Positions 10,060 to 36,973 of a stretch of 37,208 bases of DNA are shown in pieces. A model generated the notes under the pieces. That model did not search any database, had not been told where the DNA came from, and saw nothing but the letters and a program-made list of their open reading frames with translations. How positions within the stretch are numbered: the stretch's first letter is position 1; every line of letters begins with the position of its first letter. Origin of the DNA: Opitutales bacterium (GTDB taxonomy: Bacteria; Verrucomicrobiota; Verrucomicrobiia; Opitutales; JAJFLR01); NCBI GenBank assembly GCA_021772565.1, contig JAJFLR010000032.1, forward strand, positions 1 to 37,208. Direction: 5' to 3'. Both the position numbers and the translations under genes were made by a program.

Positions 10060-13000
10060 ATGTTTCACAAAAAATATAATTTAATTAGTCCAATATTAGC
10101 ATTTATTTGCATAATATTATTCAGTTGTAGTAAACCAATTCCAACTGTCGATGATATACTGAAGAGTGCAGAAGAAAAAATTCATCGTGGACAAAATGAT
10201 GAAGCAATTAAAATTTTAAAAGAATTACATCATAATCATCCCAATCATCAAGAAACAATCAGAAATCTTGCATATGCATATTCTCAAAATAATGAATATC
10301 AATTGGCTGGTAGTTTTTATAGAAAATTATCCGAACTAAATCCTGAAGCAAATATATACCGACTCTACTCTGCTCAATTTTATACTGCTAGCAGTGACTT
10401 TGAAAATGCCATAGAAGTTTATAAACTCTATCTTGAAATTGTACCAAATGATGCCGCCACGTGGAAAACTCTTGGACAATTATATCAGGAGCTAAATAAA
10501 AACAGTGAAGCTGAAAAAGCATACCAAAACAGTTACAAGCATAAGCAAAGTGAAGACATAGCAATTCGTATTGGAAAAATTAATCTTCATCAGTTGAAAA
10601 ATTTTACTGAAGCTGAAAAATGGTTTCAAATTGGACTGGAAGGAGATAATCAAACAAACTCTGAATCCTATCTGGGAATGCTTGAGTTATCATTTATAAG
10701 AAAAGATTATGATATTGCAGAAAAAATTATTACTAAACTGGATGCTGCACATCCACATGTATTGGATGTCTCACACCTGGCATCCAAACGCGACGAACTT
10801 CGTAAACTGAAAAAAAATGGGAGTTATTATAATCAAAAAATACTGCAGGCTAAAAAAATTATTTCAAAGAAAAATAAAATTGTAAATGGTGAAACGGATC
10901 TCGAAGTAACCAAGTTAGCAAATAAGTCAAAACAATTACAGAAAGATAAAACTAAACCTGTTTATCAAGATGCTAAGAAGGAAATTTCAAGATCAAAAAT
11001 TAAAAAAATCAGAGAATACGGAAAGACAAAAATCGCCAAAAACTTGTCATCAAATAAATCAATTAAAAAATCTCAGAAAAGAGAAAAATTCTCAAAGAAA
11101 ACCGAGCAGACTGTTTATGATAAAAAAATAAAAACTAGTTCTAAAAGTAAAAGACCAAAAGTTGCAAAAATTGTATCCAAGAATAAAGACATTGATAATG
11201 AGAGTAATCAAACAGAAGACCGATACGCCAATTACTTGAACGACTATTCAAGTGATTACATAACTGAAAATGAAATAGTTAAAGATCCGCCAAACAATAA
11301 GAATCGCGATGCTAGAGTAAAGCGCGAAAAGAAAGCGACAACCAATAAACAGAGGATTCTTAATAAAAAATCTAATTCTAAAGTAGCTACAAAAGATATT
11401 GAGCAAAAAAAATCTATTAGTTCTATTCAGAAAAAGAAATTATTAATTGCTAAAAAATCCTCAGTAAAAAAATCAAATAGAAAGTCAAAAAATATTAAAA
11501 GTGAATATGACGTTTTAGATGAAAAAATATTAGCATCATCTGATAATTCACAAACTAATAATAATAAGACTCCTACTAGTGCTTTAGACATAGCTACATC
11601 AACATTAAATAGTAACAGTAATCTAAAAAATGGTGCATTGGATCAGTCAACGATTGAAGAGAACAGTTTAAGTGAGGAAAAAAGTTATGATAGTTATGTG
11701 AGTAATTATTTAGCTGAGTTCATGAAAAGCAGTAAGCAACCTGTAGAAACTACATCTAAAAATACTGAAACCCGTGTTTTCAAAAGTGAAGTAAAGCCGA
11801 TGGAAGCAGTCAAGGTGATAGCAAACAATAACGTAGTTGAATACAAAAATAAAAGTTTACCAAAAAACGAATATTTCGAAAAAGAAATTACTTTATCTAC
11901 TGATTTATCAGAAACAAAAAAATCTGATTCGAGAAAATCACCAGTTATTAGTAAACGTGTAGATCTGGCTTCAGATAAATTTGATTTTGAAGATAGAAAT
12001 AAAAGTATCGATTTACAAGTAGAAGAAAATTCGAAGAATAAAGCGTTAGTAACTAAAAGCAATACCAATTTGCCAAAAGATACTATTGCCAAAAATCTAA
12101 CTACTGGCAAAGTTGATACAACTTCAGCAAGTCGAAAAGTTCATCCAGCTAGCAAACCAGAAAAATTTGAGAAAGATTTGAAGCCAGTTAAAATATTAAC
12201 TCAGAAAACTAAAGATAAAGCTGATATAATTATTGAAGAGTCAGTAACAGTTGCGAGAAATAACACGGATAAAATTTTAAATGAAACGAAAGGACTAACA
12301 AATAAAAACAAATCTGCAGTAAAAGATATAGAGTTACCTAAAGGCGTTGTAGTTCAAAAAGAAACTAAATCTGATAAAATAAAAATTAGTCAGAATATTT
12401 CTAAAACTTCTGATAAGCCCATAATAGTTGCCTCAAATGAAATTAAGACAAAACATAAAACTGTAAAAAAGGCGAAGAAACCAAAATCATTTGTTTCAGC
12501 GAATAAATCAAAAAAGAAAAAGATTGATAATATAGAAATCGCTAAAAAAAGATCCCCCTCAAAGCGAGTAAAAAAACCTGATACTGATAAACAAAAAAAA
12601 GTTGCTAAAGATATTGATGAACAAGCAATAGCTTTAAATGATAAAGAATCAAAGAGCAAATATAAGACCTTAAATGAAACGATATTAGAGCAGGCTGATA
12701 AACCCTTATCGTTAAGAGATCGTATTAAACTTAATGTTAAAAGAAAAATTTATGCTGAAACTCAGACAGAAGAATGGAGCAATAAAACATCTAAAACAGT
12801 TGAAAAAGATAATGATGCAGTTAAAACTGAAAAAGAATATGATCAGTTCGCTGATATTGAGATAGCTTCAAATTCATACAAAAAGAGCAAGTCTGCAAGA
12901 AGTACCAATAACAAAGAAAAAGTCTCATCCAAGAAACAAAAAAAACGGAAGGATACTTCATCAAAAGAACTTATCGCAAAAACTCCTAAACCTAAGAAAT

Positions 13001-13989
13001 CGATTCGAAAAAATAGATCAAAAAAAGATTCCAAGCCTAAAACAAAAATTGCAAAATCTGATTCTTCCAAGAAAAACAATACACAAATCCGCAATGACAA
13101 TAAGATTCATACTGCTAGTAATAAAGTTAAAAATACTAAAAATAATGATGAATATGTAGCTAAAGTTGATTATAGAAAAAATCAGACCAGAGAAGTACGG
13201 AATAGTAGTAGAAAAAATTACGGTCAGTCGACACGCATTGAACCTAAAAGTACAACTACTAAAACAGCAAAGATATCAAAACCTAGAAAAAAATTAGTTC
13301 CTGAAGTTGTCGAAATTGAGCAAGACGTTAGAACTGGCAGCAATAATGAATTTCGTAGATCAAATGACGTTGCGGCTATCAGACCAAAGCCCAGAAAAAG
13401 ATTATCTCTTGCTGATACTAATAATAAACCAAGACCAAGAAAACGGTTAACATTAAACAGAAGTAACAATTCGAATAAGGATGATTCAAATGGGAGTCAG
13501 TCTGTTTCGTATAATTCATTACTAGGTCAAGCCGAATCTTTAATAAGCGCAGGTAAATATTTGGAATCAATAAATATACTCCACAAGATTTTAGAAAAAG
13601 ATGACAATAGAGCGGAGCCCTGGATATTACTTTCACTTTCATATCTCAAGGCAGAGCAGCCAGATTATGCAATTAAAGCATCGTATGAAGCAGTAAAACG
13701 ATGGCCGGAAATAGCAATTTATGCTGTCAATTATTTAAAGGTAATTGAGAGGACATCATCAAAGGATAAATTATATCAGGAGATACTTAAGATTAAGGGA
13801 AATTTTTCAAATTCACCGGAAATAGAATTATATCAGGGACACACTTATGCTAATGTATTTAAGCAACCTGTAATCGCCAAAAAACATTATGAGGAATTTA
13901 TTAAACTGGCACCTAATCATCCACATTCTAAAACTATTAGAGCAAAGATAAGACGTCTGAATAGTGAAATCATGGTTAATGAGAGTTAG
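10060..13989 (+). CDS. giant TPR lipoprotein with long lysine-rich disordered centre
   Basis: A 1309-residue protein with a lipoprotein signal: hydrophobic segment then LFSC, C23 being the lipidation site. Residues about 30-240 are tetratricopeptide repeats (for instance DEAIKILKELHHNHPNHQET, ENAIEVYKLYLEIVPNDAAT). Residues about 250-1150 are low-complexity, dominated by Lys, Ser, Asn, Thr and Asp, strongly basic and presumably disordered. Within it are two similar Tyr-rich blocks (DRYANYLNDYSSDYITEN and KSYDSYVSNYLAEFMKS) and related KPRKRLSLADT / RPRKRLTLNRS blocks. TPRs return from about 1165 to the end. The frame stays open for 3.9 kb, so it is a real gene. It is probably a periplasmic or outer-membrane scaffold whose basic arm could bind peptidoglycan, polysaccharide or nucleic acid; function unknown. 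Confidence 0.85.
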   Translation: MFHKKYNLISPILAFICIILFSCSKPIPTVDDILKSAEEKIHRGQNDEAIKILKELHHNHPNHQETIRNLAYAYSQNNEYQLAGSFYRKLSELNPEANIYRLYSAQFYTASSDFENAIEVYKLYLEIVPNDAATWKTLGQLYQELNKNSEAEKAYQNSYKHKQSEDIAIRIGKINLHQLKNFTEAEKWFQIGLEGDNQTNSESYLGMLELSFIRKDYDIAEKIITKLDAAHPHVLDVSHLASKRDELRKLKKNGSYYNQKILQAKKIISKKNKIVNGETDLEVTKLANKSKQLQKDKTKPVYQDAKKEISRSKIKKIREYGKTKIAKNLSSNKSIKKSQKREKFSKKTEQTVYDKKIKTSSKSKRPKVAKIVSKNKDIDNESNQTEDRYANYLNDYSSDYITENEIVKDPPNNKNRDARVKREKKATTNKQRILNKKSNSKVATKDIEQKKSISSIQKKKLLIAKKSSVKKSNRKSKNIKSEYDVLDEKILASSDNSQTNNNKTPTSALDIATSTLNSNSNLKNGALDQSTIEENSLSEEKSYDSYVSNYLAEFMKSSKQPVETTSKNTETRVFKSEVKPMEAVKVIANNNVVEYKNKSLPKNEYFEKEITLSTDLSETKKSDSRKSPVISKRVDLASDKFDFEDRNKSIDLQVEENSKNKALVTKSNTNLPKDTIAKNLTTGKVDTTSASRKVHPASKPEKFEKDLKPVKILTQKTKDKADIIIEESVTVARNNTDKILNETKGLTNKNKSAVKDIELPKGVVVQKETKSDKIKISQNISKTSDKPIIVASNEIKTKHKTVKKAKKPKSFVSANKSKKKKIDNIEIAKKRSPSKRVKKPDTDKQKKVAKDIDEQAIALNDKESKSKYKTLNETILEQADKPLSLRDRIKLNVKRKIYAETQTEEWSNKTSKTVEKDNDAVKTEKEYDQFADIEIASNSYKKSKSARSTNNKEKVSSKKQKKRKDTSSKELIAKTPKPKKSIRKNRSKKDSKPKTKIAKSDSSKKNNTQIRNDNKIHTASNKVKNTKNNDEYVAKVDYRKNQTREVRNSSRKNYGQSTRIEPKSTTTKTAKISKPRKKLVPEVVEIEQDVRTGSNNEFRRSNDVAAIRPKPRKRLSLADTNNKPRPRKRLTLNRSNNSNKDDSNGSQSVSYNSLLGQAESLISAGKYLESINILHKILEKDDNRAEPWILLSLSYLKAEQPDYAIKASYEAVKRWPEIAIYAVNYLKVIERTSSKDKLYQEILKIKGNFSNSPEIELYQGHTYANVFKQPVIAKKHYEEFIKLAPNHPHSKTIRAKIRRLNSEIMVNES

Positions 13990-14079
13990 CAGGCTTTGCC
14001 TTGATCTAGCCAAGTGGTCATAAAAAGGTTCGAGAAGCTCAATGATATAATTGGGGAAACCGAATAAACAAAAAAAATT

Positions 14080-14742
14080 TTATGGTTCCCAAAGCGGTTT
14101 ATGATTTTTGCGATTAATTAAACCAACTGGTTTGCCAAAAATCTCAGAATAAATAAAAGCATTACGAGCAGATTGTGGATTTTTAAATGCCCTGGTAATT
14201 GTATAAATCGAATTGCCACGATAATCCTGCTTACTACTTTTTTTCTGAGCTATTGATTGTTTTAATTTGTTACTTTTTCTTAACAATCCATCCCTAATTT
14301 TTTCTTTAGCAATTTGTTTCTGCCTCGTTATGACGAGTGATTCAATATCAATATTATCTTCGACATGATTTTCAGGTTCTACGAACTCAGAGGAAATCTC
14401 AGGTCTCAAAGCACTACCAGAATACTGATTTTGTTCTACTTGCTGAGGAGATTGAAAAATTGACGGTTGCTTATAATTTTGCTGCTGATAATCAGTATGA
14501 AGTGGTGATGGCTCATTTGTCTGAGGTTGTGGTGCTTGTGGATACGCGGTTGGAGGCTGCTGCTGACGTTGTTGGATCCTTCGTTTTATCTCCTCCTTAA
14601 TTTGCCTGGCCCTCTCCTCAGGTGTTAAACTATCACTGCTACTTTCTTCAACCTCTTCCTGTCGTGAAAAGACTTTCTGAAATATCATATATGCAATGAA
14701 TGCAATTACCGGAAGTATTTCCTGCCAATCAATCATTACCAC
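14080..14742 (-). CDS. membrane-anchored Pro/Gln-rich protein next to floA
   Basis: A 220-residue protein with one N-terminal membrane helix (DWQEILPVIAFIAYMIFQKV). After it come a charged helix (PEERARQIKEEIKRRIQQRQ), a Pro/Gln-rich linker (about 60-115) and a conserved-looking C-terminus ending RNAFIYSEIFGKPVGLINRK. The last block, an (R/Q)xAFIYSEIFGxPxGL pattern, resembles the tail of short membrane proteins I associate with Planctomycetes and Verrucomicrobia; no function is known to me. It starts 12 bp after floA ends, so the two are probably one transcript and may work together at the membrane. Confidence 0.65.
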   Translation of the reverse strand: MVMIDWQEILPVIAFIAYMIFQKVFSRQEEVEESSSDSLTPEERARQIKEEIKRRIQQRQQQPPTAYPQAPQPQTNEPSPLHTDYQQQNYKQPSIFQSPQQVEQNQYSGSALRPEISSEFVEPENHVEDNIDIESLVITRQKQIAKEKIRDGLLRKSNKLKQSIAQKKSSKQDYRGNSIYTITRAFKNPQSARNAFIYSEIFGKPVGLINRKNHKPLWEP

Positions 14743-34191: not shown

Positions 34192-34884
34192 TTAACGTAG
34201 CCGGAATTCGTAATAAATTTGTTTTTTCCGAAACCAACTAATAAAGATCCCCGCCGCAAGCAGCGGGGTATTAGAAGAGTTCAAGTTCACATATGATACG
34301 CCGCAAGCGGCGGGGAATACAACCCCAAGCGATTTAATAATGTCAAAATCTTCCTGGAATTTGATGACTCTGTAACTGCGTTCCACATATTCCCTTTGAG
34401 CCGGGTGCAGAAAGACAGTCCACTTTTCCCATGGATATTCGAGAGCACGTTCAAGTTCTTCGACATTACTCATGACACGGAATCGGCGTTGGGCATCAGG
34501 ATGTTCGAACGGTTCTTCAACAGCACTAACCGGCTCAATTAACTGCGGAGTGTTACCCGTTGCCAATTCCAAAAGTGCTTCTGCAGCTTCACTGGGCAGG
34601 TGGACAACCAATTCCATTAAGCTATCCTCATTTGCCAGACGCACATCGTTTAACCATTCAGCAGGCACACCATAACGAAGCAAATCATCATTTGATATGT
34701 GCTCAAACAATTGCGGTTTGAGAGATACGGCCTGTTCAACCTCAACGTATTTTGGAATCGTAATTTCTTTTACCAACTCTCGAACTTCAACCAGTTGAGC
34801 CGCCCCAGTTTTTGGATGCGTTTCCAGCTTACGTTGCTCTGCCCAATTATAAGCTTTATAATCATTCTGCCATGTGAGTGCCAT
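34192..34884 (-). pseudogene. fragment of a UvrD/Rep-type helicase with lost core
   Basis: Residues about 7-170 (NDYKAYNWAEQRKLETHPKT, DLLRYGVPAEWLNDVRLANE, LPSEAAEALLELATGN, HPDAQRRFRVMSNVEELERA, WEKWTVFLHPAQREYVERS) match the non-catalytic region before the P-loop of a family of UvrD-like helicases. In intact proteins this leads straight into a GxAGTGKT P-loop. Here it turns into unrelated sequence (YRVIKFQEDFDIIKSLG) and then the REP-like doublet. The N-terminal RelE-like part is missing too. So it is cut at both ends: a remnant of a defence or repair helicase. The open frame alone is no proof of function. Confidence 0.7.
34245..34330. repeat. REP-like hairpin doublet
   Basis: Two related GC-rich hairpins: CCCCGC-CGCAAGCA-GCGGGG (34249-34268) and GCCGC-AA-GCGGC (34300-34311), with GGGG/CCCC flanks. 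They share the CGCCGCAAGC(A/G)GCGGGG core. Paired, spaced hairpins of this kind are typical of REP/BIME elements spread by RAYT transposases, but no such gene is in the window. The helicase remnant runs directly through it. Confidence 0.65.
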
Positions 34885-35066: not shown

Positions 35067-35303
35067 ATGACATCTGAACATCTTAAACCAAATATTATCA
35101 TTCGTGGAGCACTCTTTCCTGAAGCCATTCAGGTCATAGAAATAAAACCAACTGGAGGATTAGTTAAATTGATTGGAACAGGTGTTGATTCCAATCAGAC
35201 CTATCAACATATTCTGGACGAAAATCAGATTGCCCAACTGGAGATGAATCCAGAGATAAAGGAAGACCATGCAACATACAGAGAGGAGATGGCAGATGGC
35301 TAA
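35067..35303 (+). CDS. stand-alone N-terminal module of a helicase family
   Basis: A 78-residue protein: MTSEHLKPNIIIRGALFPEA, VQVIEIKPTGGLVKLIGTGV-like strand, ILDENQIAQLE. These blocks are the N-terminus of a large SNF2/DEAD-type helicase family, which in complete proteins is followed by a P-loop helicase core of several hundred residues. Here it stops within a short unrelated tail (EDHATYREEMADG) and overlaps the next gene by 8 bases. It is either an internally deleted helicase gene or a genuine detached small subunit; the tight overlap with the DUF4062 gene favours translation. No ribosome site is obvious before ATG. Confidence 0.6.
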   Translation: MTSEHLKPNIIIRGALFPEAIQVIEIKPTGGLVKLIGTGVDSNQTYQHILDENQIAQLEMNPEIKEDHATYREEMADG

Positions 35304-36840
35304 GTTAAGAGTTTTTGTCAGTTCTGTTCAAAATGAGTTGAGTAAGGAGCGAGCTGCCATTTTGCAGGTGATTACCGTTGACCTGTTTCTGAATAGTTGC
35401 TGTGAGGCGATTCTCTATGACAAAACGCCAACCACTGGCAAGCCCAGTAAAATGGCCTATTTGGAATTACTAAAGTCATGCAAAATCTATCTATTGATAA
35501 TAGATGTCGAATACGGTCGTCTTGATGGAAACCTTTCGGCCACACATACTGAATATAGACAGGCGCAAAACATGGGACTCCCTACAGCAGTCTTTATTCG
35601 GGGATTAGACAGTGCCAAAGACAAAAATCGTGAGGCAAGAACAGAGGAGTTCATTAACGAAATTATCGCAGATGATCACAGGTATAGCCGTTTCCATGAC
35701 CGCGAAGATTTGAAGCCCGCCGTTCGGAAAGCGCTCCATTCCATCTTGAAAAATCAATACAACCTAATGGCAACGCAAGCGGAAGAATGCGAAACCGAAC
35801 ACCAAATTGAAACAGCCTCACGATTTGAGACCAATCTCATGGATGAGGTTACATGTAAAGCTCTTGACAAAGAATCCTTATCGAAATTGGTCGAAATTGT
35901 GATCGAAAAACCCGGATTGCGGATTTTTGACGATGCCCCTGAACATGCACTAATGACGCGCGGTTTGGCAATTTCACATCGTGGGAAGACAGCAACTGTC
36001 AACCAAGCTGCATTTATATTATTTCATCCTCATCCAGCAAATCGTTTTCCTCAATGTGAAATCCTTGCCGACGCCTATGAAGAACCCAAAATATCCAGCA
36101 AACCTAAGGGTCAGGAAACGATAAACGCTTCACTGATGAAAGCCGTTGAGCAGACACTCGTGTTCATCGATAAGCATACTTTTCACCCCCGCCGCGTTGT
36201 CGGCCTTAACAATCTTCGTCTCAACGAATATCCTAACAAGGCACTCCGAGAAATTTTCATCAACGCTTTAGCACACCGAAACTACGAGGATGCTACACGA
36301 AAAGTCATGCTTCGGATATTTAGTGACAGAATTGAGATCGCAAGTCCAGGATACCCACTGAAGCCTCTGACGCTGGCAAAACTGCAAAAGGGTAATTATC
36401 GTCCGTGCTCACGCAATCCGCTCATCACGCAGACTCTTGCACTGTTGGGCCAAATGGAGCAAAGAGGCACCGGCTTTGCCCGAATGCGTGAGGCTATGCT
36501 CGACCATGGTCTTGAACCGCCAACGCTCTCACAGAGTGACGGCTATTTCGTTGTCACATTGCACGGACCAAATGGTGATTATGAACGTCTGCGGGTTCCG
36601 ATAGAGGCTCAGGGATTTATTACTCCAGCGGTCGAAGCAGAGCTCAATGAACGTCAGAAGAAAATTATGCTTGAGGCTCAAAAATCAGGTTCTGTAACCA
36701 GTGGGTGGTGCAAAAAAGCTTTTGAAGTGGCTTATAACACGACCTATCGAGACCTTTCCGACCTTGTTAAACGCAACCTTCTCGTTCAGGTGGGTAAAGG
36801 TCGTGCCACACGTTATGAACTTATTCCAGGAGTGCGATAA
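35296..36840 (+). CDS. DUF4062 / COG2865-type ATPase and HTH protein
   Basis: A 514-residue protein from ATG at 35296 (MAKLRVFVSSVQNELSKER), supported by AGAGGAG eight bases before it; a start at 35269 adds nine residues without benefit. Residues 3-100 are DUF4062, a TIR/nucleoside-deoxyribosyltransferase-like domain (RVFVSSVQNEL, LLKSCKIYLLIIDVEYGRLD). Residues about 195-430 match the COG2865 type: ATVNQAAFILFHPHPANRFP, then NKALREIFINALAHRNYED and MLRIFSDRIEIASPGYPL, GTGFARM, of a GHKL-like ATPase. A C-terminal winged helix (YRDLSDLVKRNLLVQVGKG) follows. Proteins with this architecture occur in defence-associated regions, but a mechanism is not established. Overlap with the 78-residue gene indicates co-expression. 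Confidence 0.8.
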   Translation: MAKLRVFVSSVQNELSKERAAILQVITVDLFLNSCCEAILYDKTPTTGKPSKMAYLELLKSCKIYLLIIDVEYGRLDGNLSATHTEYRQAQNMGLPTAVFIRGLDSAKDKNREARTEEFINEIIADDHRYSRFHDREDLKPAVRKALHSILKNQYNLMATQAEECETEHQIETASRFETNLMDEVTCKALDKESLSKLVEIVIEKPGLRIFDDAPEHALMTRGLAISHRGKTATVNQAAFILFHPHPANRFPQCEILADAYEEPKISSKPKGQETINASLMKAVEQTLVFIDKHTFHPRRVVGLNNLRLNEYPNKALREIFINALAHRNYEDATRKVMLRIFSDRIEIASPGYPLKPLTLAKLQKGNYRPCSRNPLITQTLALLGQMEQRGTGFARMREAMLDHGLEPPTLSQSDGYFVVTLHGPNGDYERLRVPIEAQGFITPAVEAELNERQKKIMLEAQKSGSVTSGWCKKAFEVAYNTTYRDLSDLVKRNLLVQVGKGRATRYELIPGVR

Positions 36841-36842
36841 CT

Positions 36843-36973
36843 TCCATGATTCTAAAGTATATTTTGTTGAGTTGCCTGCAATCAATCGTATCGCTGAGGA
36901 TGTGGAATCTATCGATAATCTATCGACGATTCCGGAAAATCTATCGACATACTCCCAAACGCTCCTGAATTGA
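36843..36973 (+). pseudogene. possible duplicate C-terminal remnant
   Basis: After the stop of the ATPase gene one frame continues with ELPAINRIAEDVESIDNLST and IPENLSTYSQTLLN, then a stop. SIDNLST...PENLST is wording I associate with linker regions of related COG2865 proteins. It has no start of its own. No gene is supported from 36974 to 37208. Confidence 0.25.

Follow-up and report, generated by a model that had tools for sequence, protein, structure and literature searches.

Two overlapping genes near the end of a 37,208-nucleotide contig of an Opitutales bacterium (this whole stretch of DNA is called the window) are not a new two-gene system. We find, with a probability of about 0.8, that the first gene (ORF1) is what a large in-frame deletion inside hmaA left behind, and that the second (ORF2) is an intact accessory effector gene beside this scar. 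HmaA belongs, as its helicase, to the Hma system (PMC8565338). This system, centred on the DUF499 ATPase HmaC, was later renamed type-1 BREX-related (BR), and its HmaA was described as carrying an N-terminal Tudor domain (PMC12839542). This removes the false lead of a two-gene system and puts a history of defence-island decay in its place. It also shows that TIR-like effectors embedded in restriction operons come with a conserved DNA element that was undescribed in the literature searched. The features are listed in Table 1.

Table 1. Position and basis of the features described in the text (positions in the window unless another locus is named).
Feature	Position	Strand	Basis or remark
UvrD-type helicase gene relic, truncated at both ends	34192..34884	-	adjoins ORF1
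ORF1	35067-35303	+	78 aa; real open frame
ORF1 residues 1-64, Tudor/SH3-like N-terminal module of HmaA (type-1 BR) SNF2 helicase	35067..35258	+	sequence identity
ORF1 tail (KEDHATYREEMADG, stop), probable last hmaA codons	35259..35303	+	continues the frame of the N-terminal module
Shine-Dalgarno-like AGAGGAG for ORF2, within ORF1	35282..35288	+	sequence; 7 nt 5' of start
ORF2, intact DUF4062 (TIR-like) - GHKL ATPase - winged-helix (wHTH) protein	35296..36840	+	514 aa; Pfam, 24-member alignment, AlphaFold
DUF4062 TIR-like domain (residues 5-90)	35308..35565	+	Pfam E 5.5e-14
GHKL-type HATPase_c_4 domain	36298..36561	+	Pfam E 3.4e-22; closest solved structure 3lmm
C-terminal winged helix, recognition helix AYNTTYRDL	36649..36822	+	alignment and model
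Direct-repeat (iteron-like) array, AATCTATCGA x3	36906..36947	+	starts 36906, 36917, 36938; spacing 11, 21 bp
Second hmaA deletion relic (locus L142)	L142 4778-5097 (G474:C365)	-	same genome has longer hmaA (L140)

The probable helicase gene remnant

An earlier, sequence-only reading had likened the small protein to the N-terminus of large helicases. Our searches bear this out: residues 1-64 are 41-57% identical to the N-termini of full-length SNF2 helicases of 918-1173 aa. The E-values range from 1e-11 to 1e-20, far above chance, and values down to 1e-20 rule out a fortuitous resemblance. These full-length relatives match the PADLOC profile of HmaA with E-values of 1e-188 to 1e-200. ORF1 itself had no match in Pfam, PADLOC or NCBIfam, and a PDB search with its sequence gave no useful match. 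Its predicted model is a small five-stranded beta barrel (residues 11-61) with a low-confidence tail, and the best fold matches, with weak E-values, were eIF5A N-domains and the Tudor domains of UvrD/PcrA. We rejected an origin of ORF1 in a phage system (no phage match) or in a plasmid system (the plasmid matches are full cyanobacterial HmaA). Scans of viral contigs gave nothing useful.

The N-terminal homology of ORF1 reaches about NPEI (one HmaA, in L141, has SPEIEPFDG). The tail of about 14 residues beyond it resembles HmaA C-termini, e.g., VTLKESPGTYKTGATE in L139 and VELKKDRTPYRA in L140. The combined shuffle p for five relatives (L138-L141 and L008) is 0.003, which is suggestive of an origin from the HmaA C-terminus. 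A helicase segment at about residues 401-415 matches the tail as well or better in some more distant HmaAs. Derivation from this interior segment is possible but less parsimonious, and we prefer the C-terminal origin because it lets a single deletion account for all features, the kept stop-start overlap with ORF2 among them. Such a deletion would have joined the first ~64 hmaA codons, encoding the Tudor-like barrel, to what are probably the last ~14, so that the stop codon of hmaA still overlaps ORF2. ORF2 would thereby probably have outlived its helicase and be translated via the leftover hmaA start. In the second relic (Table 1), the end of the module, ...LASLETSPETEPFD, is followed at once by DEQQLIAELEDLVVSYDP, which in the helicase lies near residue 430, and the module itself contains a frame break. 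This is independent evidence that hmaA genes undergo internal deletions directly behind this module.

The full HmaA (Tudor, SNF2 and C-terminal NOV_C/REase) is not in the window, where the Tudor module and the short tail are left. We found no match to HmaB (the DUF1156 methyltransferase) at E<=0.001 in this 95%-complete genome, and no other HmaA-like or SNF2 sequence above about 36% identity. Since about 78 hmaA codons survive and hmaB was not found, the Hma system is gone from this genome. The UvrD relic adjoining ORF1 corresponds to residues 84-248 (67% identity, 165 aa aligned) of a UvrD helicase of 694 aa that is intact in L045 (14326-16410) and shares an island with the ORF2 relative of its own genome. 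The region is a decaying defence island. A short ORF1 created by the assembly, by collapse of reads from an intact hmaA, is improbable. The genome is a draft of 124 contigs and this contig stops 368 bp past ORF2, but the searches for HmaA-like sequences and HmaB rule out that the missing middle lies on another contig, and the relic state of the neighbouring UvrD gene fits real decay. Elsewhere in the window, a 1309-aa TPR protein (10060-13989, + strand) has a long middle that is an extremely Lys/Ser/Thr-rich low-complexity stretch.

The sequence-only reading had proposed that the two genes, if conserved, form an undescribed defence system in which the short product serves as sensor or adaptor. 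We searched for ORF1 in overlapping samples of 388 genomes of the phylum, 286 of the class and 177 of the order. All but two of the matches lay inside open frames of 918-1173 aa, i.e., in helicases. One of the two was a chance match (L005; 42% across 38 aa of an unrelated protein), and the other was the isolated deletion relic of Table 1. None of about 33 close relatives of ORF2 inspected had an ORF1-like ORF upstream; where the upstream genes could be seen, they encoded full methyltransferases, specificity subunits or helicases. In everything sampled, therefore, ORF1 homologues belong to full helicases, save for one relic, and the pair occurs in this genome only. This leaves both the conserved two-gene system and the sensor or adaptor role unsupported. 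The fallback of that reading, a larger helicase deleted at this place, draws support from the intact hmaA-ORF2-hmaB loci described below and from the second internally deleted hmaA. We thus give very little credence to ORF1 as a functional stand-alone Tudor-like adaptor and defence partner of ORF2, even if the modelled barrel is complete, the frame open and the overlap with ORF2 kept in frame, since its relatives are full helicases, the ORF2 relatives checked follow full-size genes, and no recognisable ribosome-binding site precedes it.

The ORF2 protein and its genomic settings

The domain order proposed for ORF2 from its sequence, DUF4062, GHKL ATPase and winged helix, was confirmed by Pfam for the first two domains and by structure prediction for the third. 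The AlphaFold model has a mean pLDDT of 84.9, and its winged helix gave fold matches to winged helices of the MarR/AdcR/AspA type. The gene looks intact because none of the 24 aligned members departs from the core residues of the GHKL N-box (E, N, A, H and R in REIFINALAHRNY). We place its start at ATG 35296 and not at ATG 35269, because the family start M-x-K-L-R-V/I-F-V-S-S is conserved at the former. The overlap with ORF1 is consequently 8 nt (ATGGCTAA). Translational coupling, as previously suggested, is compatible with this overlap. Genes of this family usually overlap the stop codon of the upstream gene, and the overlaps with hsdM, hsdS, mod or hmaA span 4-8 nt.

Intact counterparts of the locus exist. 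In L139, from the same class as the window genome, an HmaA of 1153 aa (PADLOC E 3e-200) with an ORF1-like N-terminus overlaps by 4 nt a DUF4062-HATPase_c_4 gene, and the start of HmaB lies further downstream. Relatives closer to ORF2 (38-42% identity) follow HmaA in L053, L055 and L062, with a short ORF in between in L062, and a DUF1156/HmaB gene comes next in L055 and L062. The position between hmaA and hmaB is thus held by the relatives in L055, L062 and L139. The window, in which hmaA is a relic and the contig end cuts off the downstream side of ORF2, fits the same order of hmaA then ORF2, with most of hmaA presumably lost in frame. We also rejected, as a homologue of ORF2, an adjacent ATP-binding gene in Picosynechococcus, which encodes an OLD-like AAA/Toprim protein. 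In L008 the gap between hmaA and hmaB holds a PRTase-CE gene, and the HmaB methyltransferase (10844-14653) has an N-terminal NADAR domain.

Other relatives of ORF2 are coupled to hsdM (L041, L060, L092), to hsdS (L044) or to a Mod-type methylase gene (L043, L069). Further ones follow a ResIII protein (L045) or a DpdE/DrmD-like SNF2 helicase, with an MmeI-type methylase next (L046). Because its relatives sit among hsd, mod and hma genes, we assign ORF2 to a family of accessory genes that lie within restriction-type operons. The window genome encodes another HATPase_c_4 protein (G000:C92; L010, 625-2094), without the winged helix of the ORF2 type, between type I R-like and S-like genes.

DUF4062 is a TIR-like NADase family, of which the Klebsiella Swarozyc protein KpSwz is activated by the phage portal and causes abortive infection (PMC13174449; PDB 10wc). 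Residues 2-188 of ORF2 match the solved KpSwz in a profile comparison (E 5.6e-11), i.e., the DUF4062/stalk region is homologous. The match ends at residue 188, beyond which ORF2 has the GHKL domain and winged helix in place of the portal-binding auxiliary domain; unlike KpSwz, it also has a repeat array after its gene. The catalytic E97 of KpSwz aligns with H84 of ORF2, a position that is His in 22 and Glu in 2 of 24 members, whereas E86, two residues further on, is invariant in all 24. NADase activity of ORF2 is thus plausible as a prediction, but this displaced acid means that it is not assured.

The C-terminal half of ORF2 resembles that of the Schlafen (AlbA_2)-GHKL-wHTH proteins, which are backup effectors of BREX/BR operons (PMC12839542), and its relatives share their location inside restriction-type operons. 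The difference is that ORF2 has DUF4062 where these have the Schlafen AlbA_2 RNase domain. Judged by its domains, the putative embedded effector is the DUF4062 version of the known GHKL-wHTH effectors. The Hma/type-1 BR system is related to this locus twice, by the Tudor module of its helicase that ORF1 represents and by the ORF2 relatives between hmaA and hmaB. The family also resembles the embedded defence genes of the Payne et al. 2024 preprint, as cited in PMC11411939 and PMC12629846, and TgvAB in type I RM, in that both are self-contained defence cargoes set among the genes of a different system. In the parts of the embedded-gene literature covered by our search, which excluded that preprint, DUF4062-GHKL-wHTH cargo with its own DNA array is not named. 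ORF2 is a candidate defence gene of the cell-suicide type, and its kind is widely spread. The earlier assignment to defence stands for ORF2 as an embedded stand-alone effector and falls for the pair as a two-gene system.

The repeat array downstream of ORF2

The array that follows ORF2 has a doublet found nowhere else in the window genome, even with up to 3 mismatches allowed. We defined an array as an 8-mer occurring three times (<=1 mismatch, spaced 8-24 bp) within a 130-bp stretch around the stop codon. By this definition 52 of 100 ORF2 homologues have one, including 29 of the 32 close ones (arrays lie 3' of the stop in L041-L047, L049-L067, L092 and others). Random stretches of the same loci gave 1.9% (58/3000); stretches downstream of other ORFs gave 11/337, and those upstream of the ORF2-family gene 1/99. 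The spacings cluster at (11,21), (11,9), (10,22) and (20,12) bp, which corresponds to roughly one and two turns of the helix. In every member examined, the gene-proximal repeats lay on the coding strand. The array often begins inside the stop codon and otherwise just after it. It lies between the ORF2 relatives and the following gene, in a gap of roughly 60-230 bp within operons that otherwise consist of overlapping genes.

The repeat unit varies together with the recognition helix. Helices of the form YNT[AT]Y[RL]DL pair with AATC[TC]ATCGA, [RK]DTA[HF]RD with AATC[AG]TCCGA, [DE]QA[VI]RK with ATCCGCAAC, and R[PS]xxxxDF with AATCGTxAAG. Across 27 members, unit similarity correlates with winged-helix similarity (r=0.60), also when corrected for the TIR and GHKL domains (partial Mantel r=0.51-0.53; p=0.0005, the lowest value that 2000 permutations can give). 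The correlation of the unit with the TIR domain, corrected for the winged helix, is r=0.09 (p=0.15). The array follows the protein and not the neighbour, because a given unit is found next to more than one restriction type, and a given type next to more than one unit. One unit, for example, accompanies type I (L044), type III-like (L045) and Hma (L059) operons, which rules out that the neighbouring methyltransferase sets the array. The covariation strongly suggests that the winged helix of ORF2 binds the array right after its own gene. ORF2 is best read, on these sequence comparisons, as a putative DNA-binding TIR-like effector in restriction-type operons that specifies its own binding sites. 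As the repeat covaries with the recognition helix, binding partners should be predictable and swappable, and the silencing of embedded suicide effectors becomes directly testable.

The mechanism we propose would start with the winged helix bound to the array just 3' of the gene. The bound protein would be held inactive, or would control its own operon, until triggered by phage attack or by failure of the neighbouring restriction system. An ATP-dependent rearrangement of the GHKL domain might then release or cluster the TIR-like domains, which would consume NAD+ and stop the infected cell. A wider version of this is tentative: DUF4062-GHKL-wHTH and some Schlafen-GHKL-wHTH proteins would be DNA-tethered suicide effectors, in which the protein's own winged helix alone reads a cis iteron array (three repeats of ~10 bp, spaced by one and by two turns of the helix). 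Occupancy of the array would keep the effector off or assemble it, the cassette of gene and array would move between unrelated restriction systems, and the array would sense the local state of the DNA during infection. The array might instead be a transcriptional operator only, with ORF2 mainly regulating the next restriction gene and DUF4062 serving regulation rather than killing, which is possible but doubtful. Its position in the gap before the next gene and the His at the catalytic Glu position of KpSwz in the ORF2 branch speak for it. On the other hand, the array also follows genes without a restriction gene seen beside them (e.g., L042, L058, L065), and the occurrence of one repeat beside type I, type III-like and Hma operons means that it travels with the gene and not with a downstream target.

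The array is not common to every HATPase_c_4 protein: 4 of 19 sampled pass the repeat criterion, and among these 19 only L159, with the same kind of winged helix, has a clear array of the ORF2 type. GHKL proteins with other C-termini had no such array. The main text of PMC12839542 does not mention iterons or direct repeats, and the array was not found described in the literature searched, a search that left aside Payne 2024 and the bacterial-Schlafen preprints. Similar arrays do follow some AlbA_2/GHKL-type genes (L144, L149, L159). In L149, a plasmid of Streptococcus respiraculi, the Schlafen-GHKL gene is followed, after position 2493, by a long head-to-tail TTTATTGTAG array of 15 or so copies in 160 bp.
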